Origin: a virus
Virus record (IMG/VR): IMGVR_UViG_3300044492_000058
Span: 1 to 35,223 of that record
Length of the DNA: 35,223 nt
Reading direction: 5' to 3' (one strand)
Shown here: positions 308-34,408 of the stretch, piece after piece
Position numbering within the stretch: the stretch's first letter is position 1
Layout: each line of letters begins with the position of its first letter
Notes under the pieces: generated by a model
What the model was told of the DNA's origin: nothing
Databases searched by the model: none
The model's input: the letters and a program-made list of their open reading frames with translations, nothing else
Program-made: the position numbers and the translations under genes

Positions 308-431
308 CACGCCAGGAGTGTCATTCTCTTATCAGTTTGATCTACCACCGATCTATTACTAATCACGATATAACGCTAGCGATCCGTTACCAAATAAGCT
401 ATTGCGCTAGTGGATTATTCCTCCTGGCGTG
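308..431. repeat. 11-bp inverted repeat pair flanking ~100 bases
   Basis: CACGCCAGGAG at 308-318 is exactly inverted as CTCCTGGCGTG at 421-431. Both arms contain the genome-wide octamer GCCAGGAG/CTCCTGGC, and each is followed closely by TGTCATT. The arms are about 100 bases apart, so they look more like paired protein sites or a large stem than a simple terminator. Confidence 0.6.
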
Positions 432-465
432 TCATTGCCTGATCCGACTAGTCGCATTTCGGTCC

Positions 466-517
466 TAGTCTCAGTTCTGAGAACTGAGAATCGTCTCATG
501 GGTTGAGACTAGTCTCA
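466..517. promoter_or_regulatory. Cluster of GTCTCA/TGAGAC palindromes, possible operators
   Basis: Three dyads lie side by side: two 9-base arms CTCAGTTCT / AGAACTGAG around a central G at 470-488, GTCTCA / TGAGAC at 493-509, and the perfect 14-bp palindrome TGAGACTAGTCTCA at 504-517. They share the half-site (A/C)GTCTCA. Several near-identical dyads in a divergent intergenic region are typical of a phage repressor/Cro operator. The protein that would bind is not identified in the window. Confidence 0.45.
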
Positions 518-615
518 TCACAACCCTAGGTAGAGTGGGCTTACAACCCCAAAATGAGAACAAACGTGAACAAACCTTGGGACGATAGATGACACCAGAA
601 AACCCCTAGAACCGC

Positions 616-833
616 CCTAGCGCCATCCTAGGCGCCTTAGCGTGCATCTTAGCCCTAGCTGTCCCAAGCTGGCCCTAGGGTTGACAGGCTAGGGATCGGT
701 GGGCAAGCTGGCGTTGCCAGCTTGGGCCAAGGGCCAGTGCCCGCGATCTAGAGCCATCCCTAGGGCCATCGGCTGGCAACCCCGCACAATGGGCCATCCC
801 AAGGGCCAACCCGCCTAGCGCCATCCTAGGCGC
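616..833. repeat. GC-rich, CTAG-rich stretch with a 20-bp direct repeat
   Basis: A 20-base sequence beginning CCTAGCGCCATCC occurs identically at 616-635 and 814-833, and each copy is itself partly palindromic. Between them are a perfect hairpin with CAAGCTGGC / GCCAGCTTG arms (704-724) and many copies of CCCTAGGG, GGGCCA and GCCATCCC. The stretch has no gene and is clearly richer in G+C than its neighbours. A replication origin, a packaging site or a regulatory RNA are all possible. Nothing visible decides between them. Confidence 0.5.
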
Positions 834-1902: not shown

Positions 1903-1971
1903 CTTGCTTTTCCCTAGGCTACTCCTGGCCCACGCCAGGAGTTAGCCTAGGCAAGCGCAAGCTTGGCACTA
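1902..1971 (+). repeat. Intergenic hairpin cassette 2
   Basis: The left flank GCTTGCTTTT is followed by a 17-bp stem with one bulged T. CCTAGGCTA (1913-1921) pairs with TAGCCTAGG (1943-1951), and CTCCTGGC (1922-1929) pairs with GCCAGGAG (1934-1941). The right flank GCAAGCGCAAGCTTGGCACTA then follows. The inner part of the stem is built from the dispersed octamer. Confidence 0.7.
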
Positions 1972-2534: not shown

Positions 2535-3140
2535 ATGGATAATGACATTAAAGCTTTGACGGATGCAATGCCAACCCTTCCGGCTAGATCGCAGGAATTC
2601 GCGCGTTCACTACTGGCACAAGCTGCGGATCGCGGATTAAGCGAAAAGCAAATGTTTTGGGTACGCAAACTAGTAGCCGATGCAAACAAGCCCAAGGAAA
2701 ACACTAGCGTTAACCTAGGGGATTTTTCTGGCGTAATTGAATTGTTTAAGAACGCCAGTGAACGCCTAAAACATCCCAAGGTTAGGCTACAATTGGCCGA
2801 TGGTTCGCCAGTAGCACTTTCCGTTGCTGGCACTAATGCACGCTTTCCTGGCACAGTGAATGTGACCGATGGCAAGCCATTTGGTTCCGCCATTTGGTAT
2901 GGCCGGGTTGACACTAGTGGCAAGTGGGATATATCCGGCAAGGTTGATATGGCAACGGCTACTGCCCTTACCGCCTTGCTGGCGAATTTCGCTGCTAATC
3001 CTGCCAAGGTTGCCAGCGCCTATGGCAAAGCCACAGGTAGCTGTTGCTTCTGTGCTCGCGAGCTTACAGACCAGCGCAGTGTATCAGTAGGCTATGGCCC
3101 AATTTGTGCCGATAAATTTTCATTGCCTTGGGGGAACTAA
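2535..3140 (+). CDS. DUF6011-like protein with C-terminal zinc-binding motif
   Basis: At 201 residues this is the largest protein of the first early block. Its C-terminal part (about 168-200) contains CCFCARELTDQRSVSVGYGP followed by IC: a CxxC...C arrangement typical of the DUF6011 family, which probably binds zinc. The N-terminal half is helical, and the middle (about 75-125) looks like a beta-rich domain. The family is widespread in phages and actinobacterial genomes, but its biochemical role is unknown. The start at 2535 follows AAAGGAATAGACCA. A degenerate hairpin cassette follows. Confidence 0.75.
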   Translation: MDNDIKALTDAMPTLPARSQEFARSLLAQAADRGLSEKQMFWVRKLVADANKPKENTSVNLGDFSGVIELFKNASERLKHPKVRLQLADGSPVALSVAGTNARFPGTVNVTDGKPFGSAIWYGRVDTSGKWDISGKVDMATATALTALLANFAANPAKVASAYGKATGSCCFCARELTDQRSVSVGYGPICADKFSLPWGN

Positions 3141-3871: not shown

Positions 3872-3938
3872 CTTGCTTTTACCTATGGTTCTCCTGGCGT
3901 ACGCCAGGAGCTACCATAGGCAAGCGCAAGCTTGGGAC
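3871..3938 (+). repeat. Intergenic hairpin cassette 5
   Basis: The left flank GCTTGCTTTT precedes a long stem. CCTATGGT (3882-3889) pairs with ACCATAGG (3913-3920), around an inner perfect 20-bp palindrome (3891-3910) built from CTCCTGGC and GCCAGGAG. The right flank GCAAGCGCAAGCTTGGGACTA follows. It is the clearest example of a cassette whose stem incorporates the dispersed octamer in both orientations. Confidence 0.7.
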
Positions 3939-3959
3939 TAAACAACTAGGGAATATACA

Positions 3960-5260: not shown

Positions 5261-5287
5261 ACTCCTGGCGGTCAATCCGCCAGGAGT
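5261..5287 (+). repeat. 11-bp perfect hairpin after the 4893 gene
   Basis: ACTCCTGGCGG (5261-5271) pairs with CCGCCAGGAGT (5277-5287) over TCAAT. Both arms are the dispersed octamer in opposite orientation. There is no U-tract after the stem, so intrinsic termination is unlikely. Confidence 0.6.
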
Positions 5288-5486: not shown

Positions 5487-5752
5487 TGCGTTTCTCACTA
5501 GAAATAAAGCAAGATATCTACAAAGTAGCCCGATTTCATTACTTAGATAAGCATATGTGCCAAGCTTGGAATCGTAATCGTTCTGAACGAGAATTACGAT
5601 TGTTGACAGGTTGGGTCTGGCAGTCTAAAATCGATAATCAATATCAAATGGGACTGAAAACAATAACTGCGGCCATGCGGGATGCATACTATACACTAAT
5701 AGAACAACGTTCCGCTCCTGGCGTGGTCAATCGGATTAGGAGAGTTGCGTAA
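5486..5752 (+). CDS. Small phage protein, unknown function
   Basis: The product is 88 residues, basic and helical, with many Arg and Trp residues (LTGWVWQSK near the middle). It overlaps its neighbours by one base on both sides (TAATG), which places it in the operon that leads to the Tas-like gene. The ribosome-binding sequence is AAAGGATAAA. No domain is recognised. A dispersed octamer copy (5715-5722) lies inside its coding sequence. Confidence 0.6.
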   Translation: MRFSLEIKQDIYKVARFHYLDKHMCQAWNRNRSERELRLLTGWVWQSKIDNQYQMGLKTITAAMRDAYYTLIEQRSAPGVVNRIRRVA

Positions 5753-6179: not shown

Positions 6180-6365
6180 ATGGGTAGACAAGTAACAACT
6201 AAAGATTTTCCACGTATTCACGTACGACTAACGCCAGAATTGTATGAATTTCTTAGTAAAGAAGCTGCTAAAGAATTCCGTACTATAAATAACGAAATAA
6301 CACTGCGGTTAACGCAATCAATGCTCCTGGCGAAGAAGGATGTAACCTATAATGAGCGAAACTGA
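6180..6365 (+). CDS. Arc-type ribbon-helix-helix DNA-binding protein
   Basis: The 61-residue product matches the Arc/MetJ fold. A short strand FPRIHVRLT (about 10-18) is followed by the helix PELYEFLSKEAAKE and by TINNEITLRLTQSMLLA (about 35-51), the usual place of the second helix. Such dimers bind operator DNA. The start at 6180 is two bases after the previous stop. Its 3' end overlaps the Tas-like gene by 14 bases, so the two are probably translationally coupled and co-regulated. It may be the operon's own repressor (inference). Confidence 0.75.
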   Translation: MGRQVTTKDFPRIHVRLTPELYEFLSKEAAKEFRTINNEITLRLTQSMLLAKKDVTYNERN

Positions 6366-7200
6366 AACAACTGATTTTGATGCTGCGGAAATTCTTGGTA
6401 GTATTGAGCGTTTAACTAAGGATTTGCGTAACGCATCTGTAACGTTATCTAATCGTGAAGTAAGATTTCTAGTAGATAGTTACTATGCAATGCAGCGTGA
6501 TCGTATTCGCGCTAGTCACCAGACTAGAACACTTGAAAAGAACGAAGAACCGCATGTAGTATTGAATTGGCTTACTGGACAGAGAAGTACACTAGAGAAA
6601 CAAGTTGCCAGAGCATTAGATGCATATAGTGCAAGTAATCCGGCAAGTGCATGGGCCAGGAGCATTACAGGTATTGGTCCGATCATTTCGGCAGGATTAG
6701 TAACTCATATTGACATAACAAAAGCGCCAACTGTTGGGCATATTTGGCGTTATGCTGGCCAAGATCCAACTATGGTATGGAATAAGAAAGAAAAACGCCC
6801 GTGGAATGGTTCATTGAAACGACTTTGTTGGATTATTGGCGAAAGTTTCGTTAAAGTATCTACTAACGATAACGATATTTATGGTAAAGTATACGTTGCT
6901 CGTAAGCAACAAGAAATTATTAAGAATGAAGCACTAGAATTCAAGTCACAAGCAGAACATGCATTAGCAACCAAGAATTTTAGTGCCGATACTGAGGCAA
7001 AGAAGCACTATTTAACTGGCAAATTACCGCCAGCCCATATACATGCTAGAGCGAAACGATATGCAGTAAAATTGTTCTTGTCACACCTGCATCATGTGAT
7101 GTATGAGTTGCACTTTAACGAGCCGCCGCCGAAGCCCTATGTTATTGACCACATGGGCCATACCCATTTCCTTGCGCCACCGAACTGGCCTAGGAAATAG
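6352..7200 (+). CDS. TasA-like Nop-domain protein of a TIGR-Tas system
   Basis: The 282-residue protein has a helical N-terminal region (about 1-100) and a part resembling the C-terminal domain of IS110 transposases and Nop proteins: SITGIGPIISAGLV (104-117, a helix-hairpin-helix GIGP), WRYAGQDP (132-139), NGSLKRLCWIIGESF (152-166) and a His-rich helix HARAKRYAVKLFLSHLHHVM (231-250). It ends GHTHFLAPPNWP. The DEDD/RuvC domain that IS110 transposases carry at the N-terminus is missing, and there is no HNH motif, so it is not a transposase, TasR or TasH. Twelve bases after its stop a 36-base-period dual-spacer array begins. Nop-domain protein plus such an array defines TIGR-Tas. By analogy it binds tigRNA and target DNA, and without a nuclease it would only bind or would recruit a partner. 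Confidence 0.82.
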   Translation: MSETETTDFDAAEILGSIERLTKDLRNASVTLSNREVRFLVDSYYAMQRDRIRASHQTRTLEKNEEPHVVLNWLTGQRSTLEKQVARALDAYSASNPASAWARSITGIGPIISAGLVTHIDITKAPTVGHIWRYAGQDPTMVWNKKEKRPWNGSLKRLCWIIGESFVKVSTNDNDIYGKVYVARKQQEIIKNEALEFKSQAEHALATKNFSADTEAKKHYLTGKLPPAHIHARAKRYAVKLFLSHLHHVMYELHFNEPPPKPYVIDHMGHTHFLAPPNWPRK

Positions 7201-8756: not shown

Positions 8757-8775
8757 CCGGGCGGATCATTCCGCC
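8743..8775. terminator. Twin hairpins closing the TIGR array
   Basis: CCCGGAG (8743-8749) pairs with CTCCGGG (8755-8761), and overlapping it GGCGGA (8760-8765) pairs with TCCGCC (8770-8775). They lie between the end of the rightward array and the end of the leftward late operon, where a bidirectional barrier would be expected. Neither strand has a U-tract after the stems, so intrinsic termination is unproven. They could instead set the 3' end of the array transcript. Confidence 0.45.
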
Positions 8776-8780
8776 AGGAG

Positions 8781-9525: not shown

Positions 9526-10920
9526 TTATTCTGTTGTTCGATCAATAATTAAGCCGCAATCAGCAAGTGCAGTGATAAGTGAAGCAAGCGCATTACTTCC
9601 ATTGCGTGAGCCGGAAACTATTGGTTTGGTGGTAAAAGCAACTGGTAGTTTACTATCAACATATTGTTTCGTTGCGGCTTGTAAAGCAGTTGTTGGATCG
9701 GCTGGTAATACTACTGGAACAGTTGAGGTAAATGCAGTAGTTGACCATGAAGCACGAGTCGCACCAAGAACGGATATTCCAACAACACCAGCACCAAGTC
9801 TGCCAAAACCACTGGTGGCGTCTGTTGAAAATGTATAACTAGGATTTGCCGCAGTACCATCAACATTTCTAAACAAAACAGTTGAAGTCATTACTGTTGA
9901 TTGGATTGCTAATCGTTGCCCACCAGCAACGGCAAAACATACCGCACCAGCAGAACCAAAAACACCTGTTGTTAAATTACCCGCAAAATTAAGTGTGGGT
10001 GCCGCCGCCGTACTCAGAGGCATTGTTAGCGCACCAGACATAGTATCGCCAGCTTTAAGTAAACGTAAATTATCAGCCGTATCAACATAAGATTGTGTTA
10101 CACCACCAGCCGGAATGGCGGCAATGGAATTATCTACATATCGTTTGTTTGCCGCATCATCAATAGTAGTAGGATCGCCAAGGTTTCTAATACGATTATT
10201 TGCCATCGTTAATGATTTGCGAAATTCTATTGTCGCGGTAGAGAAGAAACAAATATCTTGCTCTCCTGTTCCACCAACACCAGTAAATCCGCACATCCAC
10301 AAGTTACCGGCATAGTATAACAGTCCGAATGCAGGACTCGATCCATCATGGAAACGAATAGTTGGAGTTATACTACCATTTAGCAGAAGATTTTGACCAA
10401 CATTAGATGCATTAGCTGGCGCGGTAATTTGTAACTGTCCAGTTATAGTATCGCCAGTTTTTAATACACGCAACGAATCCTGCGTATCAACATACGATTT
10501 CGTTACGTCACCAATTGCGGATAATACATCACCAGACATGGTAACGGTAGTGCCATCAATCCGCACACCACCCCGAATAGTAGTAGATGCTGTCGGTAAA
10601 GTATAAGTTAAGCCGGGATCACCTTGATCACCTTTGTCACCTTTATCTCCTTTGTCACCTTTCGGACCCGGAACAGTTGAATCTGCACCGGGTATTCCTT
10701 CATCACCTTTATTTCCCTTATCTCCTTGATCACCTTTATCACCTTTATCACCTTTATCTCCTGGCGGGCCAGGAGCCATTACATTCGATACATCAATAAA
10801 ATTTGTTTCTGGTGGTGTAACTACAATAGAAGTTACTTGTTGAGTAGGAAGAATTACTTCAACAACAAACGAGGTTGCTTCAATTACTTCCACTTCAACA
10901 ACAATTGGCATGTCGTTCAT
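9526..10920 (-). CDS. Tail fibre with collagen-like repeats
   Basis: The product is 464 residues. A short beta-rich N-terminus (1-48) is followed by two runs of Gly-X-Y triplets (about 50-77 and 84-104, mostly GDK, GDQ, GNK) that should form a collagen-like triple helix. The rest (about 105-464) contains segments such as DTITGQLQI and DTMSGALTM, and the phrases ATKQYVDSKL and ANKRYVDN, a pattern of trimeric phage fibre shafts also seen in the 15452 and 13911 products. It overlaps the upstream gene by ATGA. It probably contacts the host surface, and no enzymatic domain is seen. Confidence 0.8.
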   Translation of the reverse strand: MNDMPIVVEVEVIEATSFVVEVILPTQQVTSIVVTPPETNFIDVSNVMAPGPPGDKGDKGDKGDQGDKGNKGDEGIPGADSTVPGPKGDKGDKGDKGDQGDPGLTYTLPTASTTIRGGVRIDGTTVTMSGDVLSAIGDVTKSYVDTQDSLRVLKTGDTITGQLQITAPANASNVGQNLLLNGSITPTIRFHDGSSPAFGLLYYAGNLWMCGFTGVGGTGEQDICFFSTATIEFRKSLTMANNRIRNLGDPTTIDDAANKRYVDNSIAAIPAGGVTQSYVDTADNLRLLKAGDTMSGALTMPLSTAAAPTLNFAGNLTTGVFGSAGAVCFAVAGGQRLAIQSTVMTSTVLFRNVDGTAANPSYTFSTDATSGFGRLGAGVVGISVLGATRASWSTTAFTSTVPVVLPADPTTALQAATKQYVDSKLPVAFTTKPIVSGSRNGSNALASLITALADCGLIIDRTTE

Positions 10921-11255: not shown

Positions 11256-11590
11256 TATTTCTTGTTCATTTCAACATTACCACCATAAATAGTAGATGGA
11301 CCAACTACAGTTGCGGTCTGGCCAGGAGCAAGTTGTGCTGTTACTGGCGGAGGATTAGTTGGCGTTTGTGATGGTGGCTTAACATCATGTCCGCCCAATT
11401 CTCGTTTCGAGAACCGATCCATTGTCTTCCACTTATCTGCCAAGGCTTTTAGGGTTGGTGTGCGTTCATTCTTATTTAGTTGTTTCTGTAGTGCTAGTCT
11501 GCATGAATGATCCATCTGTTCAAGTATTACTGGATCAAGTGCTGCACCAAGCGCAGGATGCACTAATTGCGGTCTGTTATCGTCACTCAT
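11255..11590 (-). CDS. Unknown small protein in the fibre cluster
   Basis: The product is 111 residues. A helical N-terminal half (about 15-60, including SCRLALQKQLNKNERTPTLK) is followed by a Pro/Thr/Gln-rich stretch and a short glycine-containing end. ATG 11590 has a strong AGGAGAAGATA leader. Position between fibres suggests a virion or assembly role, but nothing in the sequence identifies one. Confidence 0.55.
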   Translation of the reverse strand: MSDDNRPQLVHPALGAALDPVILEQMDHSCRLALQKQLNKNERTPTLKALADKWKTMDRFSKRELGGHDVKPPSQTPTNPPPVTAQLAPGQTATVVGPSTIYGGNVEMNKK

Positions 11591-11599: not shown

Positions 11600-12664
11600 C
11601 TAGTTAACAAAGCCAAATGAAGCTGAATCAACAACGCCAGCAGCATTACCCGGAATGATACTTAGTTGCCCACTACTAAATAACATTCCACCAAGGTTAA
11701 CAAAGTATCTTGGTCCAGTAGCTGTGCCAGTATAAGTCATTTCGTAAACGTTCAACTGAGCATTATTGGTTGCCAAATAATATCCACCAGGGAATGCTGG
11801 ATTTCCAGTAATCGTTACTTTAACACGCACCATAGTTACTACGCCAGTATAAACAGCAGCAACATGGTGAGCACCAGCCCCACCATAAATCGAATATGTG
11901 GTAGCTTCACCACGCCACGGATGTAAGTAACCCATCGTGCCAACTTGTATATGATGAGAAGAACAAGGGCCAAAAGCTAGTGCATCATACAATACTAGAC
12001 CGGCACGATCAAGAAACAATCCAACGCCGTAAGGTTGATACGGTTGTGGTGTTGCTGGTCCAGTTGCTTCAAATGATACGCCTTGTATATACAAGACCGC
12101 AGCAGCAACAACTGCTACTGCCCATTGATTAACGCCTTTGATAATATAAGCGCGCGGATTCAATGGATCGCCTTGAATAATCAAGTTACCATTGATGGTT
12201 TGCCAATGATACGCTGGCGGATAGGTGCCAGGAGCAAGTTGAATAATACAATTGCGACCAGCAATATCGACATAAGTATAGATGTAGTTAATCGCAGCGT
12301 TAATAGTTTTCCAAGGATTATCTACTTCACCACTACCAGTGGCATCGTTACCGTTGATGGCATCAACATAAAATGCCGTATCCACTTCAAGTTTACGTCG
12401 TTGCAAACTCTTAATGGCATTCCAGAGTTGCATCAAATCATTGGAAGCCGGTTCTACTCCAGAACCAATAATACAATTGGCTATTTGGCCATACAACCAA
12501 TTGTCTTTATCATCCGACCACTGGAACATTGTATTGAATTGTTCAACAGTTGGCGGCGCTTGACCAATAAATGCCCAACCTGCATCACTTTGAGCGAAGG
12601 TAGGATCATCGGTTAATCCTTGTCTTGCCCATTCTTCTCCGAAACGATCCCACCAAGATGGCAT
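11600..12664 (-). CDS. Tailspike-like protein with predicted beta-helix
   Basis: The product is 354 residues. The N-terminal part (1-95) is helical and Trp-rich (MPSWWDRFGEEWARQG), probably a virion-attachment domain. From about residue 95, DTAFYVDAINGNDATGSG followed by NPWKTINAAINYI is the typical start of a right-handed beta-helix (pectate-lyase-like) domain, continuing as repeated short strands to the end. Such proteins bind or cut surface polysaccharide. Catalytic residues cannot be assigned by eye. The AGGAG leader supports the ATG at 12664. Confidence 0.65.
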   Translation of the reverse strand: MPSWWDRFGEEWARQGLTDDPTFAQSDAGWAFIGQAPPTVEQFNTMFQWSDDKDNWLYGQIANCIIGSGVEPASNDLMQLWNAIKSLQRRKLEVDTAFYVDAINGNDATGSGEVDNPWKTINAAINYIYTYVDIAGRNCIIQLAPGTYPPAYHWQTINGNLIIQGDPLNPRAYIIKGVNQWAVAVVAAAVLYIQGVSFEATGPATPQPYQPYGVGLFLDRAGLVLYDALAFGPCSSHHIQVGTMGYLHPWRGEATTYSIYGGAGAHHVAAVYTGVVTMVRVKVTITGNPAFPGGYYLATNNAQLNVYEMTYTGTATGPRYFVNLGGMLFSSGQLSIIPGNAAGVVDSASFGFVN

Positions 12665-12692: not shown

Positions 12693-12866
12693 TCATGCAG
12701 TTTCTCCTGGCGGATCAGGTTCGTTACCCGCTTCTAACCATTGTTTATACTCTTGATAGTCGCGATTACCTTCATCAAACGGAATGAAAGCATTGTCTGC
12801 TACTCGTTTCACTACTTGCATTGTCATGCCAGGAAGTGTCGTTACTAGTTGATATTCTTTTACCAT
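12693..12866 (-). CDS. Small tail-fibre-associated protein
   Basis: The product is 57 residues starting MVKEYQLVTT at ATG 12866. GAGG lies five bases upstream, overlapping the stop of the previous gene. The frame extends upstream to 12929, but that part overlaps the fibre gene without a ribosome-binding site. The C-terminal pattern NRDYQEYKQWLEAGNEPDPPG is a frequent ending in phage tail-fibre assembly and fibre-tip proteins. It may be a chaperone or adaptor for the neighbouring fibre (inference). Confidence 0.6.
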   Translation of the reverse strand: MVKEYQLVTTLPGMTMQVVKRVADNAFIPFDEGNRDYQEYKQWLEAGNEPDPPGETA

Positions 12867-15278: not shown

Positions 15279-15455
15279 CTATGCTCCTGGCGGGGTATTC
15301 ATCGAATGCAAAGCTTCACCACTACCGTTAGGCTTTACTTGTTCACGCAACTGATTAGATATACCATGTATTAGTTGCGCGGATACTTCATAGGGTTGCT
15401 TGGCCAGGAGTGCAAGGATATTCTGCCAAGCTTCCTGAGGTAGATCAACGTTCAT
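15279..15455 (-). CDS. Small protein between two fibre genes
   Basis: This 58-residue gene starts at an ATGA overlap with the end of the S74 fibre gene (ATG 15455) and stops at 15279, four bases before the next fibre start. The product, beginning MNVDLPQEAW, is helical, with NILALLAKQPYEVSAQLIH at about residues 12-30 and a short polar tail. Gene-size small frames of this kind next to fibres often encode assembly helpers. No family is recognised. Confidence 0.6.
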   Translation of the reverse strand: MNVDLPQEAWQNILALLAKQPYEVSAQLIHGISNQLREQVKPNGSGEALHSMNTPPGA

Positions 15456-21894: not shown

Positions 21895-22252
21895 TGGCAG
21901 TAAATCCGTAATCCGGCAGTAAACCCAAATCAAACAAGTCTTGTTGTGTCTGATAAACTAATTGATATCTACCCGAACTAAATCCATCTCGCGGAACTGG
22001 ACCACTTCTATAGTGTGAACTGCCGACCCACAATTCTCCTGGCGGCATGTCGGAATAACGAAACTGATAAGTTAATGGATAGTTTGCCGAAACTGAAATT
22101 CCATTGATCAACGTTTCATAAGCCGAATTTCTAATGCCCATCGTCCAGTATTGACCAGATTCATTCCAATCCAAAATGATATAATATAGAATATCATCAA
22201 GCGTTGCCTCAATGGCTTGACTGTTTGCATCAATAACTTCAAGGACATACAC
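21884..22252 (-). CDS. Baseplate plug-like small protein
   Basis: The product is 122 residues and beta-rich: ATLDDILYYIILDWNESGQYWTMGI (about residues 16-40 as a pattern) and LINGISVSANYPLTYQF match the small phage plug proteins (DUF6983-like) found between Dit-like and hub genes. Translation probably starts at GTG 22252, four bases after the previous stop, with no strong ribosome-binding site. It is likely part of the central baseplate. Confidence 0.6.
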   Translation of the reverse strand: MYVLEVIDANSQAIEATLDDILYYIILDWNESGQYWTMGIRNSAYETLINGISVSANYPLTYQFRYSDMPPGELWVGSSHYRSGPVPRDGFSSGRYQLVYQTQQDLFDLGLLPDYGFTASAV

Positions 22253-22888: not shown

Positions 22889-24954
22889 TAGTTTTGCGTC
22901 GCCGCTTCTACTCTAGGCGCAGTAGTCTGCATATCCCTAGTAAAAGAACTAAACAAATCAGTAGTCATAGCAGTAATGCGACTACCCAATACTTTAGCAA
23001 TTTGTTCTGCATCAAGAGTTGTTTCGATCCTAATACCTCCAATGTTTTGATTAAATGTTGGCGCAACAGTAGTACTAACTGGAGTAGGCGCAACGGGCGG
23101 TCCCATTGCTCCTGGCGTGACTGATGTTGTCGGTTGGTTCAAGTAATTCTCAATATCTGATTGCCACTTCGGTTTCTGTTGTTCTGGCAATACTTCAGTT
23201 GGTGGTAGTAAACTACCAACTCCAGTAACAATCTCCTTTGGATTAAGCATTTCAGCAACGAAACCAGCAATACCACCACTCAAACCTTTGCGGAAACGAT
23301 CTATAAAACCTTCGCCTAATGCTGGCTCATTAACGAGTTTATCAGCGGCAATATCAAACAAAGTAAAGCCAAGACTAGCTAAACCACCTTTAACTAAATT
23401 CTTGGTGAAACCACCAATCCGCGACATAAACCCTGGACCAACTTCTGCTGGCGTAATCTTAATCGGTTCGCCGGTCCACGGATTTCTTTCTGGAGTTACA
23501 CTAACACTCGGTTTGCCAGGAGTGCCGGGTAATACTTCCGGAACAACACCGGGTTTACCAGTAGTTTTACCACCAGTTCCCGGTAATGCTTCACCTTTTG
23601 CTGCACTAGCAGTTTCTTTAACGGCTGGTGTTAGTAGTTTGAATGCGCCTCTAACCCCTCGAATTAACGGCAATAATAAGAATAGTGCAATACCAATTGA
23701 GCCAATAGCCGCAACGATAAGCAATACTTCAGCTTCAGTGCTTTCACGTAATATCTTGAAGTCTTTCTTGAAGGCTTCAAAATCAAGAGTAAATATATCT
23801 TTAAGAGTACGAAAACCAGCAAAGATATCTAAATTCTTGAAGTTTTCCTTTAAGTCTTTAAATGGTCCTACCCACGTTCCAATTAAAGAACGTCTTCCTT
23901 GCATCCAACCAACTAAATCTTCAATCGCAACTGCAACAGCAGCAACTGCCGCCGCCATACCTAACCAAGGTAATACTGCCGCCCAACTTGTATAGACAAA
24001 TCTAAGCAAAGATGCAGTAGCAAACGCCAGCATTTGAAGTAGTTTTGGACCAAATACAAGCGCCAAAGTAATGCCAAGTAATCTTATGGCGTTTTCTAGT
24101 CCACCGACTGCATCAACTAACCACTTAAGACCATTGCGTAATGTTGACCAAACGTTCCAAACGACTCGGCCCATAAACACCGAGGCATCGGTCATTTTGT
24201 ATATACGCGCCGTAACTTCAGACAAATCATTGTAGATTTTAACAAAAGCTTTATCTAGCTTTTGTGGAACTTTACTCCATTCTTCATCGAGTTGTTTGTT
24301 AGCTTTACTAAAAGCAGCAACAACTGCTTCGGCAGTTACCTTACCAGCTTTGGCAAGCCGGCGCATCATATCTTCCCGAGTTTCGTTTTGATGTTGTTCT
24401 TTAGCGAAGTAATCCGCTAATACATCAAATGTCTTGGATGATATATCTTGTAATCTACCGATACCAACTGATCGAAACGAACCACGTTGGAAAGAACGAT
24501 TAAATAAATCCAGCGCCTCTGTCATGCCTTCAGCAGAGATGCGACTTACTTGTAACGTTTTGTAAATGTTTTCAGTAGCAGCAACAATATCATTAGCGGG
24601 AACAGTGGTTTCCCGCATTTCGTTCTGAAATTCTTTATAAGTGGCTAATACATCCCGATAAGACAAACCAAGTCGTTGTGCAGTCTCAAAGACTTTCTCC
24701 TGGGCGGCGGCCATGTCATCGAACGGTCTGGCAATGACCTTTAATTGCGCCGATAACTTATTTATTTCTTTCCCTGCCGTAACGAGTCCGTCAGCGAATT
24801 CTATAATTTTATCAACTGAAAATGCAATACCAATGAATTTGGCAGCATTGATTGCAAGTGACTTGAGCCGCGCAATGCCAGCTTCATACTGTTGAAAACC
24901 CGAGGTATCTACCTCAGTTCCCAGTAGCGTAATGAGTTCGCGGACAACTGCCAA
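22888..24954 (-). CDS. Tail tape measure protein
   Basis: The product is 688 residues, started by TTG at 24954 with AAAGGA upstream. Long helical N-terminal coiled regions (about 20-270) are followed by hydrophobic segments (about 285-345 and 405-430). A Pro/Gly-rich part (about 445-500) and a C-terminal helix-forming end follow. These are the usual features of tape measure proteins, which set tail length and reach the host membrane. It is the longest gene of the tail module apart from the S74 fibre, and it follows a frameshift-type chaperone, as expected. It is short for the family, suggesting a short tail. Confidence 0.85.
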   Translation of the reverse strand: MAVVRELITLLGTEVDTSGFQQYEAGIARLKSLAINAAKFIGIAFSVDKIIEFADGLVTAGKEINKLSAQLKVIARPFDDMAAAQEKVFETAQRLGLSYRDVLATYKEFQNEMRETTVPANDIVAATENIYKTLQVSRISAEGMTEALDLFNRSFQRGSFRSVGIGRLQDISSKTFDVLADYFAKEQHQNETREDMMRRLAKAGKVTAEAVVAAFSKANKQLDEEWSKVPQKLDKAFVKIYNDLSEVTARIYKMTDASVFMGRVVWNVWSTLRNGLKWLVDAVGGLENAIRLLGITLALVFGPKLLQMLAFATASLLRFVYTSWAAVLPWLGMAAAVAAVAVAIEDLVGWMQGRRSLIGTWVGPFKDLKENFKNLDIFAGFRTLKDIFTLDFEAFKKDFKILRESTEAEVLLIVAAIGSIGIALFLLLPLIRGVRGAFKLLTPAVKETASAAKGEALPGTGGKTTGKPGVVPEVLPGTPGKPSVSVTPERNPWTGEPIKITPAEVGPGFMSRIGGFTKNLVKGGLASLGFTLFDIAADKLVNEPALGEGFIDRFRKGLSGGIAGFVAEMLNPKEIVTGVGSLLPPTEVLPEQQKPKWQSDIENYLNQPTTSVTPGAMGPPVAPTPVSTTVAPTFNQNIGGIRIETTLDAEQIAKVLGSRITAMTTDLFSSFTRDMQTTAPRVEAATQN

Positions 24955-25602: not shown

Positions 25603-26046
25603 TTAACCTGTTGCCGCATTACCACCTACTAGGTATACGCCAGGAGCACCAGTATGAATTGCCCATGCGCGAGTCGTTACTTCCTTGCCAAATTCAATAT
25701 CAGCAGGCTTAACGATCCACGCTTCCGATGCGGCAAACAAAGTATCACCACAAAGATCCTGTACTAGTATAGGACCAATACGCCCACCACAAGTAAGAGC
25801 ATCAACAGCAAACATTGTAGAAAGAAAATCATTAGCAGGAGATGTTTGCTGTAGTGTAACTGTGACTGTACAACGTCGGTCAGCGTTAACTGCTCTGGCA
25901 AGTTCTCCATCCGCACCAACTTGCGTAGTAATACCATCATTCTGCATAGTAATGTTGATGAATGTACCGTCAGCAAACCCCGTGATATTAAATCCGTTGT
26001 AAATCACCACGACCCTTGCTGCATTATAAGTACGAATACCCGGCAT
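25603..26046 (-). CDS. Tail tube protein, DUF3277 family
   Basis: The product is 147 residues. VVVIYNGFNITGFADGTFINITMQNDG followed by VGADGELARAVNADRRCTVTVTLQQTSPAND is the signature of the DUF3277 family of tail tube proteins. It has a very strong leader (TAAGGAGGAATAATAC) before ATG 26046, in line with a product needed in many copies. The inner tube formed by it is surrounded by the sheath encoded just upstream. Confidence 0.85.
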   Translation of the reverse strand: MPGIRTYNAARVVVIYNGFNITGFADGTFINITMQNDGITTQVGADGELARAVNADRRCTVTVTLQQTSPANDFLSTMFAVDALTCGGRIGPILVQDLCGDTLFAASEAWIVKPADIEFGKEVTTRAWAIHTGAPGVYLVGGNAATG

Positions 26047-26059: not shown

Positions 26060-27166
26060 TTATGCTGCGGTTGCTGCACTAACAGCAAGATTTTCGTAAG
26101 TCAGCGTCCCTTGCACTTGCACAACATGAATAGCGCCAGCAAGTCTGGCAGTAAAGTATACATCGCGCAAGATTCGGTTCGCTTTGTCATTGGCCGAAAT
26201 CGTCATTGATAGTGGAACGGAAATTGTATAACTCGGCACATAGTTACCTTCGATATCAACTTCCGGAGGCGCAATACCACCACGATTTACGCCACGATCC
26301 AAAGCTTGCTGTAGTCTACTACGAATAATCGCAATACCCGGATCAGTATAAGGAATACGGTTATCGATCATCTGTTGAAAGATCGTAACTTTTATTTCCT
26401 CACACAACCAATCGCGGAACCTTATTACATCAATCCATTCGCCACCAGAAGTCTTACCATTCTGAGTAATGGAAACGTTACGGAACGGTTCAAAAGTATT
26501 ACCGTTCTTAGCATAGATGTTATTGAAAGTAGTTTCATTCAAGAAAGTAGAAGTAACAGCTTGTAGGCGTTGATTAGCCCAAGTCTCCTGGCCGGGATAT
26601 TTGGTGAACATTTTCGATGCAATAGCGACATCAGGAAATTCAACTAGGCTAGGATTCCACCACCAAGCAGTACGGAAATAATTACCTTCCATCAATTTAT
26701 GTGCTATCGAAGTAGTATCGGTTGGTGGTGCAGAAATATCTACACTATCATGCAGTGTAGTAACGAAAATCTTTTCATGGGCTTCTACCCAATCAGCAAT
26801 ATCGAGTACTTGCGTGCTATCATGCTTAACGTTACAAAGACCATACCAATCATTATTTTCATTAGACAATGCGGCCAAATCTACGCCAACATCGCCCGAA
26901 TTGGCATCGAAACCAATAAACAAGCGTGGCGGATGTGGTATCTGACTAAAGAACGTAGATGCCGCCTGATACATTGGATCATCAGTATTGACGATACCAA
27001 AAGTGTCCAGTAGTTCATCTGGATCAGTAATGATATATACATTAGCTGTGCTACCACCAGGCTTAGTAAATGTGCCAAATAGCAACAAATCACTAAAGGT
27101 TGCCGAGGTAATACCAGCAGTTCGTAGTGCAATAGATACTTGGACGATACGATCAATGTTAGCCAT
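26060..27166 (-). CDS. Tail sheath protein, DUF3383 family
   Basis: The product is 368 residues, within the family's usual size. The N-terminus IDRIVQVSIALRTAGITSATFSDLLLFG and the part MYQAASTFFSQIPHPPRLFIGF are typical of DUF3383 sheath proteins. The C-terminal end (TARLAGAIHVVQVQGTLTY) forms the handshake strands of the contractile sheath. This gene shows that the phage is a myovirus. A strong AAGGAGAAAGAATAA leader precedes the start. Confidence 0.88.
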   Translation of the reverse strand: MANIDRIVQVSIALRTAGITSATFSDLLLFGTFTKPGGSTANVYIITDPDELLDTFGIVNTDDPMYQAASTFFSQIPHPPRLFIGFDANSGDVGVDLAALSNENNDWYGLCNVKHDSTQVLDIADWVEAHEKIFVTTLHDSVDISAPPTDTTSIAHKLMEGNYFRTAWWWNPSLVEFPDVAIASKMFTKYPGQETWANQRLQAVTSTFLNETTFNNIYAKNGNTFEPFRNVSITQNGKTSGGEWIDVIRFRDWLCEEIKVTIFQQMIDNRIPYTDPGIAIIRSRLQQALDRGVNRGGIAPPEVDIEGNYVPSYTISVPLSMTISANDKANRILRDVYFTARLAGAIHVVQVQGTLTYENLAVSAATAA

Positions 27167-27182: not shown

Positions 27183-28280
27183 TTACGGAACAACCATTAG
27201 AGCATTTGTTACTGGATCGCGCCATAACGCACCAGAAACGGCAGGAGCTACAGTAGGCAAGAAAGCCATTTTAACTATACCTGTTGCTTTTTCGATTACA
27301 ATAGGTCTATCAAGTATTATGCCAGAAGCATCGTGGCGAACTATAGCAAACTGGTTATTACCAAAACGAATATTCCAATCTGATTTACCATCGATTGACG
27401 AAAGTATTTGCGCTTCCGATGCTGCACTGATAAAGAAGTAAAGCACTGGATATGCATTAGTTTTGGTCAGTGTTAGATTATCATTAAGGAAAGTTGGACC
27501 AGTTATTGTACCGCCAACTAGCTTAAAGTAACGAGCATCTGCATCAGCTTGTGTTAGACCGCCACCACCTGTTTCTATAGCGGTCCAAACTGCATTGTTT
27601 CTTCCGTAAGTAATTCCATCAGATGGTGCCTCTGGAATACCACCACTTGATCCACCAGCGCCAATATTTACTATGCCGTTATTATTCCATAATGTATTAG
27701 GGTCTACTTGCGGGACAGTCGGCATCCCCGATATAGAGAACATTGGAGTAGAAACAAAGAATTGGTTTGCTCCAAAAAATCCATATTGGTTCGCATTAAA
27801 AACAATTTCGTTACCACCACTACCGCGAACTATATTACCAGTATAGCCGGGAGCATTAAACAACAAATCATTATTAGCAATTTCCATAGCCCAAGGGCGA
27901 GATGATAACATTCCCGTATCATTATCAATCGAACCAATTGCTAGACCACCCCATGGTCCAGCAAACATTGTTCCGCCACCATAAGCACCATACAATTTAA
28001 GCATTGGCGGAGTTGGTAGATCAGGACTAGTGGAAACGATTTCTATATTTTGCTGAGAGGTATCACCAAGATTACTCTCAACACGTAACGTTCCAGTTAA
28101 CGTTCCACCAGTAATTGGAAGAAAGTCACCAGTTTCTCCTGGCGTGACAGGTGGAGGAATAGCCGCAATCTGGTTCTGTAGCGATTCAATTTCATTCTTT
28201 ATTACCGTGAAATTATTACGCACATCAACAGTATATGCTTTACCAGTTGTCGGTTTAGTAACATCGATTTGACTACTCAT
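27183..28280 (-). CDS. Fibre-like virion protein between neck and sheath genes
   Basis: The product is 365 residues from ATG 28280, preceded by GGAG ten bases upstream. The open frame extends to 28313, but that part overlaps the previous gene. The first 35 residues (IDVTKPTTGKAYTVDVRNNF) match the N-terminal module of the two fibres at 15452 and 13911. Further fibre-type phrases are GGTLTGTLRV and ADARYFKLVGGTITGPTFL. It is glycine- and asparagine-rich with beta-type repeats. Its place, between tail terminator and sheath, is unusual for a fibre; it might be a neck whisker or a displaced fibre (inference). Confidence 0.65.
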   Translation of the reverse strand: MSSQIDVTKPTTGKAYTVDVRNNFTVIKNEIESLQNQIAAIPPPVTPGETGDFLPITGGTLTGTLRVESNLGDTSQQNIEIVSTSPDLPTPPMLKLYGAYGGGTMFAGPWGGLAIGSIDNDTGMLSSRPWAMEIANNDLLFNAPGYTGNIVRGSGGNEIVFNANQYGFFGANQFFVSTPMFSISGMPTVPQVDPNTLWNNNGIVNIGAGGSSGGIPEAPSDGITYGRNNAVWTAIETGGGGLTQADADARYFKLVGGTITGPTFLNDNLTLTKTNAYPVLYFFISAASEAQILSSIDGKSDWNIRFGNNQFAIVRHDASGIILDRPIVIEKATGIVKMAFLPTVAPAVSGALWRDPVTNALMVVP

Positions 28281-28287: not shown

Positions 28288-28905
28288 TCACTCCCACAAA
28301 GTAGTCCTGCCATCCCATGAAGTAGTCAAATCATCCCAAATAGTTATTTGAAGATGCGGCAAATCTTGGTCTATATACGGAACAGTTATTGTTTCTTCGC
28401 AAGTTACATTAGTTAGTGATCCACTATAATCGCCTTCGATAACTACAGTGGCAATAAAGCCTACGTCTTCATCGAAGTTTTCGGTATAGTAGAAATCAAA
28501 GTGGTAAATCGCCCGATCTTCATATTGCGAGTTATTCAACAGTGCCGGAATTCGTTGCAGCATCAATCGATTACCGATCGATACATCTAGTCTTTGCTGT
28601 TGTTCTAGACTTGCTTCAGTTGCTAGTAGTTGTGATAGTTTATTTGCCAAACGCAATGAATCATGTGCAGCATATACCTGCAAATCCACCACAGCTTTAC
28701 GCCAGGAGGACATTGTTCTGAAGCCACGATAATCTACTTTATTACTATACCACTCATGATCAGGTAGATCATCGGCAGTATAGTTTAGTGTAATATACGG
28801 CTTATTAACTCTAACAGCATTTTGGAACGACCAGATGATTTGAATGCTCTCCTGGCCAACAGTATTGATGGCGTGATCGATCAAATCATATAGCTTAGGT
28901 ATCAT
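28288..28905 (-). CDS. Neck/tail terminator-like protein
   Basis: The product is 205 residues. DLIDHAINTVGQESIQIIWSFQNAVRVNKPYITLNY (as a pattern) and RKAVVDLQVYA resemble the phage neck terminator (LIC_12616-type) family, which closes the tail tube before head joining. It starts at an ATGA overlap, and its order before the sheath gene is as expected. The C-terminal 40 residues, ending DDLTTSWDGRTTLWE, carry W-D repeats like those at the end of the DUF2612 product. Confidence 0.65.
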   Translation of the reverse strand: MIPKLYDLIDHAINTVGQESIQIIWSFQNAVRVNKPYITLNYTADDLPDHEWYSNKVDYRGFRTMSSWRKAVVDLQVYAAHDSLRLANKLSQLLATEASLEQQQRLDVSIGNRLMLQRIPALLNNSQYEDRAIYHFDFYYTENFDEDVGFIATVVIEGDYSGSLTNVTCEETITVPYIDQDLPHLQITIWDDLTTSWDGRTTLWE

Positions 28906-30567: not shown

Positions 30568-30834
30568 TTATGACTTATTGGGGTTTGACTGATTTGGATT
30601 GGGCGGATTGGTTCGCTGCTGATTGGGCTGTTGCTGATTTGGTTGTTCTGTCTTGGCACCAATACGTGTTCCGGCTGGTTCACTGGTGTTTTCCAAGAAA
30701 CCATCCGTAATAGCTTGTGCAATTGTTGCGTTAGCCAACGCTTCATCGGAAATTTCCGTTGCAACTCCTGGCGGGATGGGCGTCATATCATGAGTATTGA
30801 TAAGACGTTCAGTTTTATTAACAACTGTAGGCAT
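30568..30834 (-). CDS. Small protein with disordered Pro/Asn/Gln tail
   Basis: The product is 88 residues. An N-terminal folded part (about 1-60, PTVVNKTERLINTHDMTPIPPGV) is followed by a low-complexity tail of Pro, Asn and Gln (about 62-88). The start is two bases after the previous stop. It sits between the capsid genes and the connectors. The function is not recognised. Confidence 0.6.
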   Translation of the reverse strand: MPTVVNKTERLINTHDMTPIPPGVATEISDEALANATIAQAITDGFLENTSEPAGTRIGAKTEQPNQQQPNQQRTNPPNPNQSNPNKS

Positions 30835-30998: not shown

Positions 30999-31975
30999 TA
31001 AGTAGTAAGGGCAGAAAGTAGTGCAAGCGGATAGAAAATGTTAACGCCACCAGAACGAGCAATACAATCAGTAACGATTTCTAGATTGCGTGCTTCCGGA
31101 GGAAGTTGCGAAAACGGCATAACATACATATGCGCGATGTTTTCCGCACTGCGCTCGTAAAGTAGACCCAAATCCTTAGTTCCGCTAGATGCAGCGTTAG
31201 TAAGTTCCCAAATATTCTCTACTGTAATATTCGGATACTGCGAACGAAACCACATCATCGGCGTAACCATACTACCCGCCGCAGTAATGAATTTAGTCGA
31301 TGCGGCAGTAAACGCTTTTGGTGCCAATTCAAGATGAGTTGGCGCGTGCGTTCCTTTTACTTGGTTCTGATAACCTGTTACCCAAGCAATAAGATTAGTA
31401 AGGATTTGATCACCAGTAAGAGTTGTCCAATCACCAACTACCGGCAATACTTGTACAGGAATGTTAGGATGTGTAAACAATCCATACAAACCATACATAG
31501 TATCGCCATTTAGCTTAATGGACATAACTTTAAGGTCCATTGCTCTCCTGGCGGCGGCAGCTTTTCTGCTATCTAGCCCAATACCTTGAGCGCGACTAGC
31601 GCGCAACTCATTGATATTATAACCGTAACTATCACCAAGAGTCCTAACACCAACAGATCGCGACACCGTTCTGACATCTGCACGCGGTAGGTCATCTGCA
31701 TAGTTTGATACAACTTTCGCCATACCAACCATATCGTATGCATATTGAGTAACGTTTTCAGCCCATTCCGGAATACTAGTATCATCCGGAACTAGCGCAT
31801 CGGCATTCGTTGCAGGAAGCTGCCGATCGTAAGTAGTAGAGCGCACATAATCTAGCTGACGTGCCAGAAAAATTGTATCGGCATCCTCACGAAAATTATT
31901 CTTAACAATGGGCGCATTGGCCAACATTGCTACATCTGATTCATCGTAATGAATGTGTTCCAGTGGCCCAGGCAT
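30998..31975 (-). CDS. Major capsid protein, DUF2184 family
   Basis: The product is 325 residues. The N-terminal part IFLARQLDYVRSTTYDRQLPATNADALVP is the family signature of DUF2184 capsid proteins, an HK97-fold group. The YAYDMVGMAKVVSNYADDLPRADV part and the C-terminal SGGVNIFYPLALL are also conserved. The gene sits after the decoration protein and scaffold-protease genes, as is usual. The start is ATG 31975, about 25 bases after the previous gene. Confidence 0.88.
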   Translation of the reverse strand: MPGPLEHIHYDESDVAMLANAPIVKNNFREDADTIFLARQLDYVRSTTYDRQLPATNADALVPDDTSIPEWAENVTQYAYDMVGMAKVVSNYADDLPRADVRTVSRSVGVRTLGDSYGYNINELRASRAQGIGLDSRKAAAARRAMDLKVMSIKLNGDTMYGLYGLFTHPNIPVQVLPVVGDWTTLTGDQILTNLIAWVTGYQNQVKGTHAPTHLELAPKAFTAASTKFITAAGSMVTPMMWFRSQYPNITVENIWELTNAASSGTKDLGLLYERSAENIAHMYVMPFSQLPPEARNLEIVTDCIARSGGVNIFYPLALLSALTT

Positions 31976-32000
31976 AGTTTGTTTCCCCTAACTAATGATG

Positions 32001-32489
32001 TTAAACGTTGGGATTGTGAAGTTCTACAACAGCAGCAAGTGTAGTAGTTACACCATCCGCGTTCAACAAACTAATGGCTTGCGAACGAAATACTGCATTC
32101 GTTACTGCAACGCCAGTAGTATTAAACTTGCCTGTAGTAGCATCGGCTTTACAAGCTACACCATCATTAATACCAGTGCCAGAATCCACAGCGGCCCAGC
32201 AACGACCGCGTGTTAGTACCGATACCGCAGTCTTATCCGGATACTGGCCAAGATAACCATAGATATGATCATGTAGTGCAACACCAACGCCAAGTGTAGC
32301 ACTTGCACCATTCTTAATAGTCATTGCACCAGCGCCAGTACGTTGTACTGCAACACCAATAGTAACGCCAAGCGCCGGATCGCTAGCAGCGAAAGTATCG
32401 ACGTTATCGTCCATACTATCTTCTTTCATGCCAACAAAGGCCGGAGCCATATAGTTAGCATAAACATTGTTACTAATCGAGAATGACAT
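32001..32489 (-). CDS. Capsid decoration / cement protein, DUF2190-like
   Basis: The product is 162 residues and beta-rich, with GVAVQRTGAGAMTIKNG, GVALHDHIYGYLGQYP and VLTRGRCWAAVDSGTGI. This matches the Gp24-like structural cement proteins near DUF2190. It would bind on top of the capsid and stabilise it. It starts one base after the stop of the protease/scaffold gene, with a good AAAAGGAGGC leader. Confidence 0.75.
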   Translation of the reverse strand: MSFSISNNVYANYMAPAFVGMKEDSMDDNVDTFAASDPALGVTIGVAVQRTGAGAMTIKNGASATLGVGVALHDHIYGYLGQYPDKTAVSVLTRGRCWAAVDSGTGINDGVACKADATTGKFNTTGVAVTNAVFRSQAISLLNADGVTTTLAAVVELHNPNV

Positions 32490-33554
32490 TTATGCAGCCT
32501 CCTTTTCACCACGGATGCGAGCAATCATTCTCGCCCTAGCATCAATTGAGGAAGTACCAGAATTACTGGTATCTTGTTTCGTTACAGTCTTAGTCTTTTG
32601 ATCAGCAGTCTTAGTATTCTTGTTATCTGCATTAGCAATAGTAATGTCAAATGCAGAATCTACATAATCATCGGAACGATCAGTAAAGTCCAGATCATTA
32701 CCAAGCTTCTTAATGATCAATTCTTTAATAGAACGATCACTAGCGTTACTATCAAACTTAATTGACAGTTGTTCCGCTTTGTCTTCAAGCTTAACGCGAC
32801 TCCTGGCGGAGGAATTCGCCAGTTTTACTGCATTCTCTTGTTCTTGCTTTGCGGTAACAAGTGCAGCCTTAGCAACATCGACTTGTGCATCAGCCTTATC
32901 AGCACGAGTCTTCAACGAAACAATTTCTTCAAGCATTTCCTTGAACTTTACTACCACTTCATTAGCGGCAGCATATTCTAGTCCGTTATCAAAACGGACT
33001 TTCCCTAGTGTAACTTCTGCCATGTCATCCTCCGTAGGAAAAGAACTGCGATCTTCACTATCTAGTCTAATTCTCGCGTTACCAGCACGACCTTTATGTA
33101 CAACAGCCAAATGATTGTATTTTATTCCACGTTGGATACAATCATAAGGTTGACCGTTATACTCGCCAGGAGTTTCGTCAATCTTGCAGACATAGCCTAG
33201 CGAAAGATCACGTTTGTTACCGATTTTCTTTACATTGTGAATAACTATATCAGCAACTACATTGTTTTCATTCAGTTTTTCCCCGGAAGACATTACATTA
33301 CCAACAATAATCCCATCTAGATTACTGTCAATGGTGAGAATTCCATTATGACCATCAGTAATAGGAATAGCACGCAACGAATTCAAGCTATCTGCGCTGA
33401 ATACTTCATCTTCTGGCCGATATTCTCTTACTACTTTACCTTTACTATCATGATACTTGAATATACCGGCGCGCGTAATAACTGGCTTGTCGATGATCCA
33501 GCCTTCCGCTGTAACATCGGCTTTTAGCTCAATTACATCATAACGAACTGGCAT
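32490..33554 (-). CDS. Prohead protease-scaffold, DUF2213 family
   Basis: The product is 354 residues. The N-terminal DUF2213 domain (about 1-165) has AIPITDGHN (62-70), DLSLGY (116-121) and NHLAVVHKGRAG (147-158). Ser118 and the His residues 69 and 148 are likely active-site members of an assemblin-like protease (inference from the fold family). Residues 195-265 form a long charged coiled coil, the scaffold part. It overlaps the head morphogenesis gene by one base. Confidence 0.82.
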   Translation of the reverse strand: MPVRYDVIELKADVTAEGWIIDKPVITRAGIFKYHDSKGKVVREYRPEDEVFSADSLNSLRAIPITDGHNGILTIDSNLDGIIVGNVMSSGEKLNENNVVADIVIHNVKKIGNKRDLSLGYVCKIDETPGEYNGQPYDCIQRGIKYNHLAVVHKGRAGNARIRLDSEDRSSFPTEDDMAEVTLGKVRFDNGLEYAAANEVVVKFKEMLEEIVSLKTRADKADAQVDVAKAALVTAKQEQENAVKLANSSARSRVKLEDKAEQLSIKFDSNASDRSIKELIIKKLGNDLDFTDRSDDYVDSAFDITIANADNKNTKTADQKTKTVTKQDTSNSGTSSIDARARMIARIRGEKEAA

Positions 33555-34408
33555 TATTCTACTTCTTCCAGTAATGACGCCTCAAACGCTACAAACTCTG
33601 GCAATACTGGTTCTGCCCAGCAACGACATTGATAATCTTCACCTGGGTGATTATCATCCGTTTCGCTAGGCGGATTATCCCAACTAAAGTATTGCCCATC
33701 TACTTCTTCGTGAGATTCTCTTACCCGTTCATCACCAACTGTTCGCCAAATGTAACCTTCTACGCCAATATCTTGTTGACGTTCTTTAGTTAGTTCGCCA
33801 TTAAGCTTGGCAACCTGATCACGCGCTATTAAGGTTGCGCGACTATCACTCACTTCTGTTCGTTCCGACATTATATCAAAAACTTGTTTCGTTAGGTCTT
33901 TTAGGTTAGTTCCCTGTATTAGTGCTTCCCTAGTTTGGGCAGCAATTTGGTTACTGGTCTTAAACGGGATATCCTTAATCAGCAACGAATTGTTGCGTGA
34001 CCAGTTACCAAGTAACGACCGATACTTTTCGGAATTTTCCTTAGTTGGATCAACTCCATACTGCGACCGCATCAATCGTTTCCATTGAGCTTTATTGTAT
34101 TCATTTACTTGTGGTCCTACTCGTTGCATTTCTTTAATAGCTTGATTAGTATGCGTAGTCATTTTGTCAGCGATACGTCGCATAGTCTTATCTAGTCTAT
34201 CCTGCCAGCCAGTATATGCATCTTGTCTAACTTCACCAGTTGGCAAATTCGTTGCAGTAGCTTCCTCGGCCATAAGTGGTACTTGTGGCGACATATACCT
34301 CTTAAGTAACAATTTATACTGATTATTCATTTTCAACAAAATACGCCGATAGGCCCACTCCTGGCCGACAGGGTATTTCATTGGAATAATCGGTTTACGC
34401 GGTCGCAT
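33554..34408 (-). CDS. Head morphogenesis protein, Mu gpF / SPP1 gp7-like
   Basis: The product is 284 residues. The core (about 160-265) shows the phage Mu F-like signature: SRATLIARDQVAKLNGE, then WRTVGDERVRESHEEVDG (221-238, with Asp226, Arg230 and His233) and a final PGEDYQCRCW (255-264). It acts in head assembly or DNA ejection. It overlaps the portal gene by 14 bases. Confidence 0.85.
   Translation of the reverse strand: MRPRKPIIPMKYPVGQEWAYRRILLKMNNQYKLLLKRYMSPQVPLMAEEATATNLPTGEVRQDAYTGWQDRLDKTMRRIADKMTTHTNQAIKEMQRVGPQVNEYNKAQWKRLMRSQYGVDPTKENSEKYRSLLGNWSRNNSLLIKDIPFKTSNQIAAQTREALIQGTNLKDLTKQVFDIMSERTEVSDSRATLIARDQVAKLNGELTKERQQDIGVEGYIWRTVGDERVRESHEEVDGQYFSWDNPPSETDDNHPGEDYQCRCWAEPVLPEFVAFEASLLEEVE

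Follow-up and report, generated by a model that had tools for sequence, protein, structure and literature searches.

A dispersed octamer kept at DNA level in a clade of contractile-tailed phages: a possible uptake-type signal

The stretch of DNA considered here (IMG/VR virus record IMGVR_UViG_3300044492_000058, 35,223 bp, referred to as a whole as the window) is a fragment of a contractile-tailed myophage, in which genes for a major capsid protein, a Mu-F head protein, the sheath (DUF3383), a tape measure, a Baseplate_J protein and a protein with an S74 domain are found and from which the replication region is missing. Scattered along it is the octamer GCCAGGAG or its reverse complement CTCCTGGC, present in 35 copies (16 of the first and 19 of the second form on the + strand); the first-pass annotation of this DNA had counted 34 (15 + 19), one too few, whereas the excess it reported is real and all the positions it listed proved correct on exact recount. 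Dinucleotide shuffling predicts 0.47 copies over both strands (maximum 3 in 100 shuffles) and Markov models of orders 1, 2 and 3 predict 0.52, 0.41 and 0.95, corresponding to an excess from 37-fold (order 3) to 85-fold (order 2), so that the enrichment first estimated as about 30-fold over one chance copy persists after modelling of tri- and tetranucleotide composition. Orders 4, 5 and 6 give 3.8, 18.6 and 33.6 and represent an unfair null, the word lengths they count being largely made by the motif (G precedes 35 of 37 CCAGGAG). The word ranks first among all octamers of the window, as it does in the tabulated set of 16 records with the signal; its extended form reads S-GCCAGGAG-H-A. In the window it is most commonly preceded by C (24 of 35), and the largest gap between copies is 2,734 bp. 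Twenty copies fall within listed open reading frames (ORFs) and 15 outside, and the peptides encoded in several frames (PPGE, TPGE, GQE, ARR, ARS, LLA, APG, SSWR and others) are indeed as diverse as had been remarked.

Relatives of the window were fetched by capsid or sheath protein (13 + 21 loci; the 33 distinct ones, L009-L041, were all counted), and for 21 records, 17 of them of the near group, the octamer was counted over the whole record. It is present in 16 of these 17 at 0.49-1.27 per kb, with 0-1 copies of the reversed word, the exception being G008, and four records at 31-35% sheath identity contain 0, 0, 1 and 0 copies. Among the best 80 of 361 relatives kept from a wider capsid search, enrichment (0.44-1.26 per kb) is seen in 49 of the 51 loci whose capsid identity is 53% or higher, the two others being again G008 (L018) and a locus of 5.1 kb with one copy (L336), and none of the 29 loci at 41-49% identity stands above expectation. 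Viral contigs were scanned twice to completion for inverted pairs lying close together, which gave 24 and 27 stretches and supplied 37 further loci, 29 of which are octamer-rich (36-47% guanine-plus-cytosine, GC) and all carry genes common to the phage group, the remaining eight, with no such genes, being at background (seven of high GC and one, with 2 copies, of 40%). Records found in this way (G018-G029 and G031) were selected for the octamer and give no independent evidence on its density; moreover, such scans miss signals that do not form close pairs, as indicated by a like scan with the uptake signal sequence (USS), which yielded no more than 4 stretches, with 2-3 USS in each. In G030, an unrelated phage of high GC, the octamer reaches 17 copies where 6.6 are expected; other words are equally high there, and the count was taken as an effect of composition. 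Whatever reads it, the octamer offers a ready marker for the phage clade.

Gene-by-gene comparison covered 16 signal-bearing records (632,619 bp, 680 sites), the comparison cells being record pairs and as such not independent. Of the 817 gap-free sites at 60-75% protein identity, 407 are shared exactly, against 7.3% for random 8-mers, and the mismatches at aligned sites are bimodal, either 0 or 3-5, with 1-2 being rare. In stretches without residue differences the octamer is unchanged in 130/142, 365/453 (the 60-75% bin), 187/295 and 75/92 cells of the four bins below 90% identity, where other 8-mers are identical in 27, 20, 17.5 and 18%, which means that the choice of synonymous codons is constrained to retain the word; sites in ORFs use all six combinations of frame and strand (108, 96, 89, 75, 70 and 27). 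Codon usage was therefore rightly dismissed at first inspection, and a codon or composition effect is ruled out by the Markov counts together with this conservation at identical residues. The same comparison bears on a mobile micro-repeat, which had been listed among the options: the alignment around sites, shared or not, is gap-free in 254/260 cases at 75-90% identity and 817/844 at 60-75%, with 74 of the 254 not exactly shared, so that insertion of a mobile repeat is rejected and sites differing between relatives are gained and lost via substitution. For chance, codon usage or a mobile repeat speak only modest background counts in GC-rich genomes, and against them stand the Markov excess, the distribution by clade, the gap-free substitution pattern and the DNA-level conservation, leaving these explanations with a negligible probability. 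The octamer is almost certainly a functional signal at the level of DNA and, as the comparison of relatives shows, a dispersed recognition signal of which every base is retained across a clade of contractile-tailed phages of ~52 kb.

The spectrum of mismatches points to a graded tolerance. The sixth base is relaxed (331 altered forms against 70.5 expected, 4.7-fold), which is not so in G008; the first, second and eighth are about twofold above expectation (the first is elevated in G008 as well), the fourth and fifth are at expectation, and the third (10 against 27.4) and seventh (20 against 29.6) are below it. Taken together, the strict positions (3-5, CAG, and 7, A) thus have altered forms no more often than expected. 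The near-miss words GCCAGAAG and GCCAGTAG are conserved in 68/160 and 56/236 cells, no better than frequent control words (0.40-0.52), and clear constraint is therefore limited to the exact octamer. These data are pertinent to the possibility that the octamer, with CCAGG inside, is a modification-linked word tied to a DNA methyltransferase, for which the highly iterated octamer HIP1, associated with orphan methyltransferases (PMC4390886), gives a precedent. The conserved unit, however, is eight bases with strict CAG.A and not CCAGG, GCCAGGAG differs from its own reverse complement and is not palindromic, and methyltransferase-like genes were noticed, by eye, only in G020, which renders this explanation highly improbable. 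The genes in question are two similar neighbours at 26713-28104 of G020 (L172:6713-8104), adenine methylase-like by eye, with five octamers in 1.4 kb, and the pair is absent from all other records compared.

Sites are arranged neither at random nor with respect to strand. Convergent pairs closer than 40 bp (CTCCTGGC...GCCAGGAG) number 73 against 7 expected in the 16 records, so that ~146 of 680 sites, about a fifth, belong to close facing pairs, while sites on the same strand are rare within 200 bp of each other (13 against 72 expected), as are sites on opposite strands at distances of 40-200 bp (27, with 58 expected). With pairs merged, spacing is evener than random (coefficient of variation, CV, 0.70 against 0.915 simulated, z -6.1) and gaps above 2.5 times the mean are scarcer (3.7 against 6.9%). 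Taken per strand, spacing has no extra regularity (CV 0.868, as compared to 0.83 after shuffling of the strand labels), and only the very shortest gaps between sites of one strand are depleted relative to shuffled labels (1.9 against 3.0%); this analysis speaks against strand-specific functions such as primase start sites or Chi. ORFs of at least 90 amino acids accommodate 465 of 680 sites, at a density of 0.89 per kb inside against 1.92 outside; by gene spread, density amounts to 0.92 per kb in genes seen in a single record, 0.90 in core genes and 0.53 in genes present in 4-8 records.

A Chi-like site, also considered initially, would shield phage DNA ends from host RecBCD/AddAB nuclease and start recombination. 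The octamer is G-rich and asymmetric, and over-representation of Chi in recombinase-less phages, including virulent T5 (PMC3784561), sets a precedent. Chi, however, acts in one orientation, while octamers of opposite strands repel each other too; its density is given as 0.2 per kb with about 2-5-fold excess (PMC3784561), as compared to ~1 per kb and 37-85-fold for the octamer, i.e., some five times denser; and the excess of close inverted pairs is left unexplained. A role of this kind is thus improbable. Stoperators, repressor sites scattered over the genome, lie mostly between genes and follow the direction of transcription, whereas two thirds of octamer sites are intragenic and use both orientations and every frame, and genes for integration were not found in the 14-15 signal-bearing records inspected. 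Although a repressor that is encoded by a phage and has numerous asymmetric sites is a known precedent (PMC9283540), we give this possibility even less credence than a link to methylation. Altogether, a signal of uptake type or one read by the phage fits better than Chi, a HIP1-type word, stoperators or a mobile repeat. The positions of the copies in the window are collected in Table 1.

Table 1. Octamer copies and inverted pairs along the window
Position	Strand	Feature and context
311..318	+	octamer, non-coding
421..428	-	octamer, non-coding
1922..1941		inverted pair (1922- / 1934+), tip of long intergenic hairpin
3891..3910		inverted pair (3891- / 3903+), tip of long intergenic hairpin
5262..5286		inverted pair (5262- / 5279+), intergenic hairpin
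5715..5722	-	octamer, non-coding
6324..6331	-	octamer, non-coding, directly ahead of Tas-like gene 6352-7200
6655..6662	+	octamer within Tas-like gene
8773..8780	+	octamer right beyond TIGR array
10758..10775		inverted pair (10758- / 10768+) within ORF 9526-10920
11321..11328	+	octamer, ORF 11255-11590
12227..12234	+	octamer, ORF 11600-12664
12704..12711	-	octamer, non-coding
15284..15291	-	octamer, non-coding
15403..15410	+	octamer, non-coding
17147..17154	+	octamer, ORF 15452-17569 (Peptidase_S74 domain, fibre-like)
17678..17685	-	octamer, ORF 17566-18393
19302..19309	+	octamer, Baseplate_J gene
22036..22043	-	octamer, ORF 21884-22252
23109..23116	-	octamer, tape-measure gene
23515..23522	+	octamer, tape-measure gene
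25639..25646	+	octamer, ORF 25603-26046
26585..26592	-	octamer, tail-sheath gene
28136..28143	-	octamer, ORF 27183-28313
28701..28708	+	octamer, ORF 28288-28905
28849..28856	-	octamer, ORF 28288-28905
30765..30772	-	octamer, non-coding
31545..31552	-	octamer, major capsid gene
32800..32807	-	octamer, ORF 32490-33554
33165..33172	+	octamer, ORF 32490-33554
34358..34365	-	octamer, Mu-F-like head gene

Several other features of the window deserve mention. Long intergenic hairpins at 1368-1421, 1897-1971, 2444-2503, 3140-3199, 3866-3940 and 4321-4380 form a family with a shared base, AGCTTGCTTTT ... AAGCGCAAGCT, and varying tips, two of which contain octamer pairs; four of the hairpins, folded as RNA, gave z of -4 to -7. 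The transposase-like gene at 6352-7200 (phrog_4285; Tas-like), to which a gene of G001 (35557-36405) is 87% identical, adjoins a TIGR-like array of 36-37-nt repeats (7228-8757), which the first-pass annotation called TIGR; as it stated, the array (7220-8770) is free of octamers and the next copy follows at 8773. Among other enriched words, residing mostly within 1-5 kb, GTATATACAA occurs 6 times against 0.11 expected and is perhaps promoter-like, and CCTAGG-rich palindromes are seen at 613, 811, 3517 and 3587.

As to the reader of the signal, the best anatomical fit is provided by an uptake-type role, one of the options proposed at the outset, in which the octamer would be recognized by the host; by analogy with known uptake sequences we assign it a probability of roughly 0.4. 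The fit concerns spacing, orientation, the non-coding excess and inverted pairs, and the reader itself is inferred. The host, supposedly naturally competent, would prefer to take up DNA bearing the octamer, which its uptake machinery would bind, and phage DNA set free on lysis, if recombined in competent cells or under selection for being taken up, would keep about one site per kb, whether through benefit or through drive. Even and orientation-free placement would provide nearly every DNA fragment with one octamer. If read by the host, the word would represent an uptake-sequence dialect beyond those known and a sequence tag for finding the phage host and its competence system.

Bacterial genomes were sampled as 24 mixed ones plus 369 from the class of a Gammaproteobacteria bin, 399 from the order of a Rhodocyclaceae bin, 198 from the phylum of Salegentibacter and 142 from the class of a Rhodopila bin (group names deduced), i.e., 1,132 rows or ~1,125 distinct genomes. 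Several observations weigh against uptake. None of these ~1,125 genomes approaches 1 per kb, the maximum being ~0.34 per kb in a genome where the reversed-word control is likewise high. Dense octamers were confined to this one phage clade in the two scans of viral contigs, while USS are carried by phages belonging to many clusters. Large, likely lytic phages of Pasteurellaceae are described as USS-poor (PMC6776037). No tyrosine integrase was found in 14 signal-bearing records, nor a resolvase or rve domain in 15, and the octamer phages encode their own DnaE-type polymerase, ThyX and VapE-like helicase. Finally, a T-run was not seen after close inverted pairs (2.9 T among the 10 bases that follow, 2.9 being expected; 63 pairs); with this background T content, a terminator role of the pairs was rejected as well. 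A scan of the genome collection for inverted pairs showed, among the matches listed, hardly any additional excess (no more than 5 further copies where 1.3 were expected, and that in GC-rich DNA) and thus neither finds nor excludes a host, which may possibly come from an unsampled lineage.

The virulent-looking gene set and the lack of an octamer-dense host among the sampled genomes, together with restriction to a single phage clade among everything examined, make a close rival of the tentative alternative that the octamer serves the phages as an address of their own throughout the genome, read by a DNA-binding protein that they encode and used in replication, packaging, DNA organisation or the discrimination of own from host DNA; it is nearly as likely as the uptake-type role. 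A packaging-type signal, likewise named at first inspection, would belong here. Of note in this respect is G008 (L195-L197), which has 76% capsid identity, shares none of 112 aligned sites and, in identical-residue stretches, keeps the octamer in 0/27 cells against 9% for other 8-mers. It encodes Prim-Pol, a family A polymerase and a ParB-like protein and is devoid of the replication set of the clade, namely the VapE-like helicase, the primase-like protein (archaeo-eukaryotic in type, as judged by eye) and the RecU-like protein, all three of which are found in G001, as well as of DnaE and several proteins without assigned function. The helicase, the RecU-like protein, the DnaE polymerase and such unassigned proteins occur in 7/7 near-complete signal-bearing records, and the primase-like and an exonuclease-like protein in 6/7. 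Yet complete loss of the signal is also what would be expected from a change of host. With a GC content of 51% instead of ~42% in G008, either a new host or a swapped replication module could account for the loss, and the two are confounded in this one record. Search for some other signal in G008 gave no more than modest excesses (e.g., CAACCGC, 40 against 10.6).

One of the unassigned proteins, L188:4651-5619, again in 7/7 near-complete records and not in G008, is a candidate reader. Its model contains a possible winged-helix domain (residues ~110-205) similar to MarR-like and other winged-helix chains (VIA Z 6-7.5); the model is weak, however (mean predicted local distance difference test 66, Z below 8, best Foldseek E 0.08), and the protein is a putative octamer binder. 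The low-confidence models support no further fold claim, other folds being conceivable. For the small-terminase-like protein (L188:10732-11076) a low-confidence model suggests just a helical hairpin. Genes found in a single record are as site-rich as core genes, and their donors may therefore carry the octamer too, which argues against a reader proper to these phages. That a phage protein such as the winged-helix candidate reads the octamer as a self-label for packaging, replication or protection seems unlikely. We know of no phage signal resembling a genome self-label of this sort, and an octamer read by the phage would establish a new class of address spread over the phage genome.

The octamer is, to our knowledge, not among the known dialects of uptake sequences, and in the literature searched we found no report of a phage-wide octamer of this kind, nor of GCCAGGAG alongside 'uptake sequence'. 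Nevertheless, likeness to the host-read DNA uptake sequence (DUS) and USS is extensive: an asymmetric short word at about 1 per kb, in either orientation, with a strict core and tolerant positions, and present in phages. Uptake sequences are characterized by even spacing, enrichment in non-coding DNA and lack of orientation bias, with 35-65% of copies in ORFs and ~10% in inverted repeats (PMC1939737), and every trait so described has its counterpart in the octamer phages. The density of ~1,000 per Mb compares with ~750 per Mb, at which Hin-USS is stated to saturate in Pasteurellaceae and their phages, where it marks phage hosts (PMC6776037). A positive control comes from the extended capsid group: G823 (L386-L388; capsid 44% identical), with an integrase and a host inferred to belong to Pasteurellaceae, contains 28 copies of AAGTGCGGT (Hin-USS) in 45.8 kb against 0.45 expected, 14 per strand, with a spacing CV of 0.58, and the octamer phages resemble it in density and strand balance. 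On the opposite strand the strict bases include CTG, which in Neisseria DUS forms the strict core (PMC3630211), a resemblance rather than a test. The differences are that the octamer phages look virulent and that their pairs, unlike many DUS pairs, have no T-runs. Of the other systems, Chi in phages is likewise an over-represented octamer, about five times less dense and without such inverted pairs; HIP1 of cyanobacteria is likewise highly iterated, but palindromic and a feature of host genomes (PMC4390886); and the stoperators of mycobacteriophages are likewise asymmetric and dispersed over the phage genome, whereas the octamer is mostly intragenic and placed both ways round.

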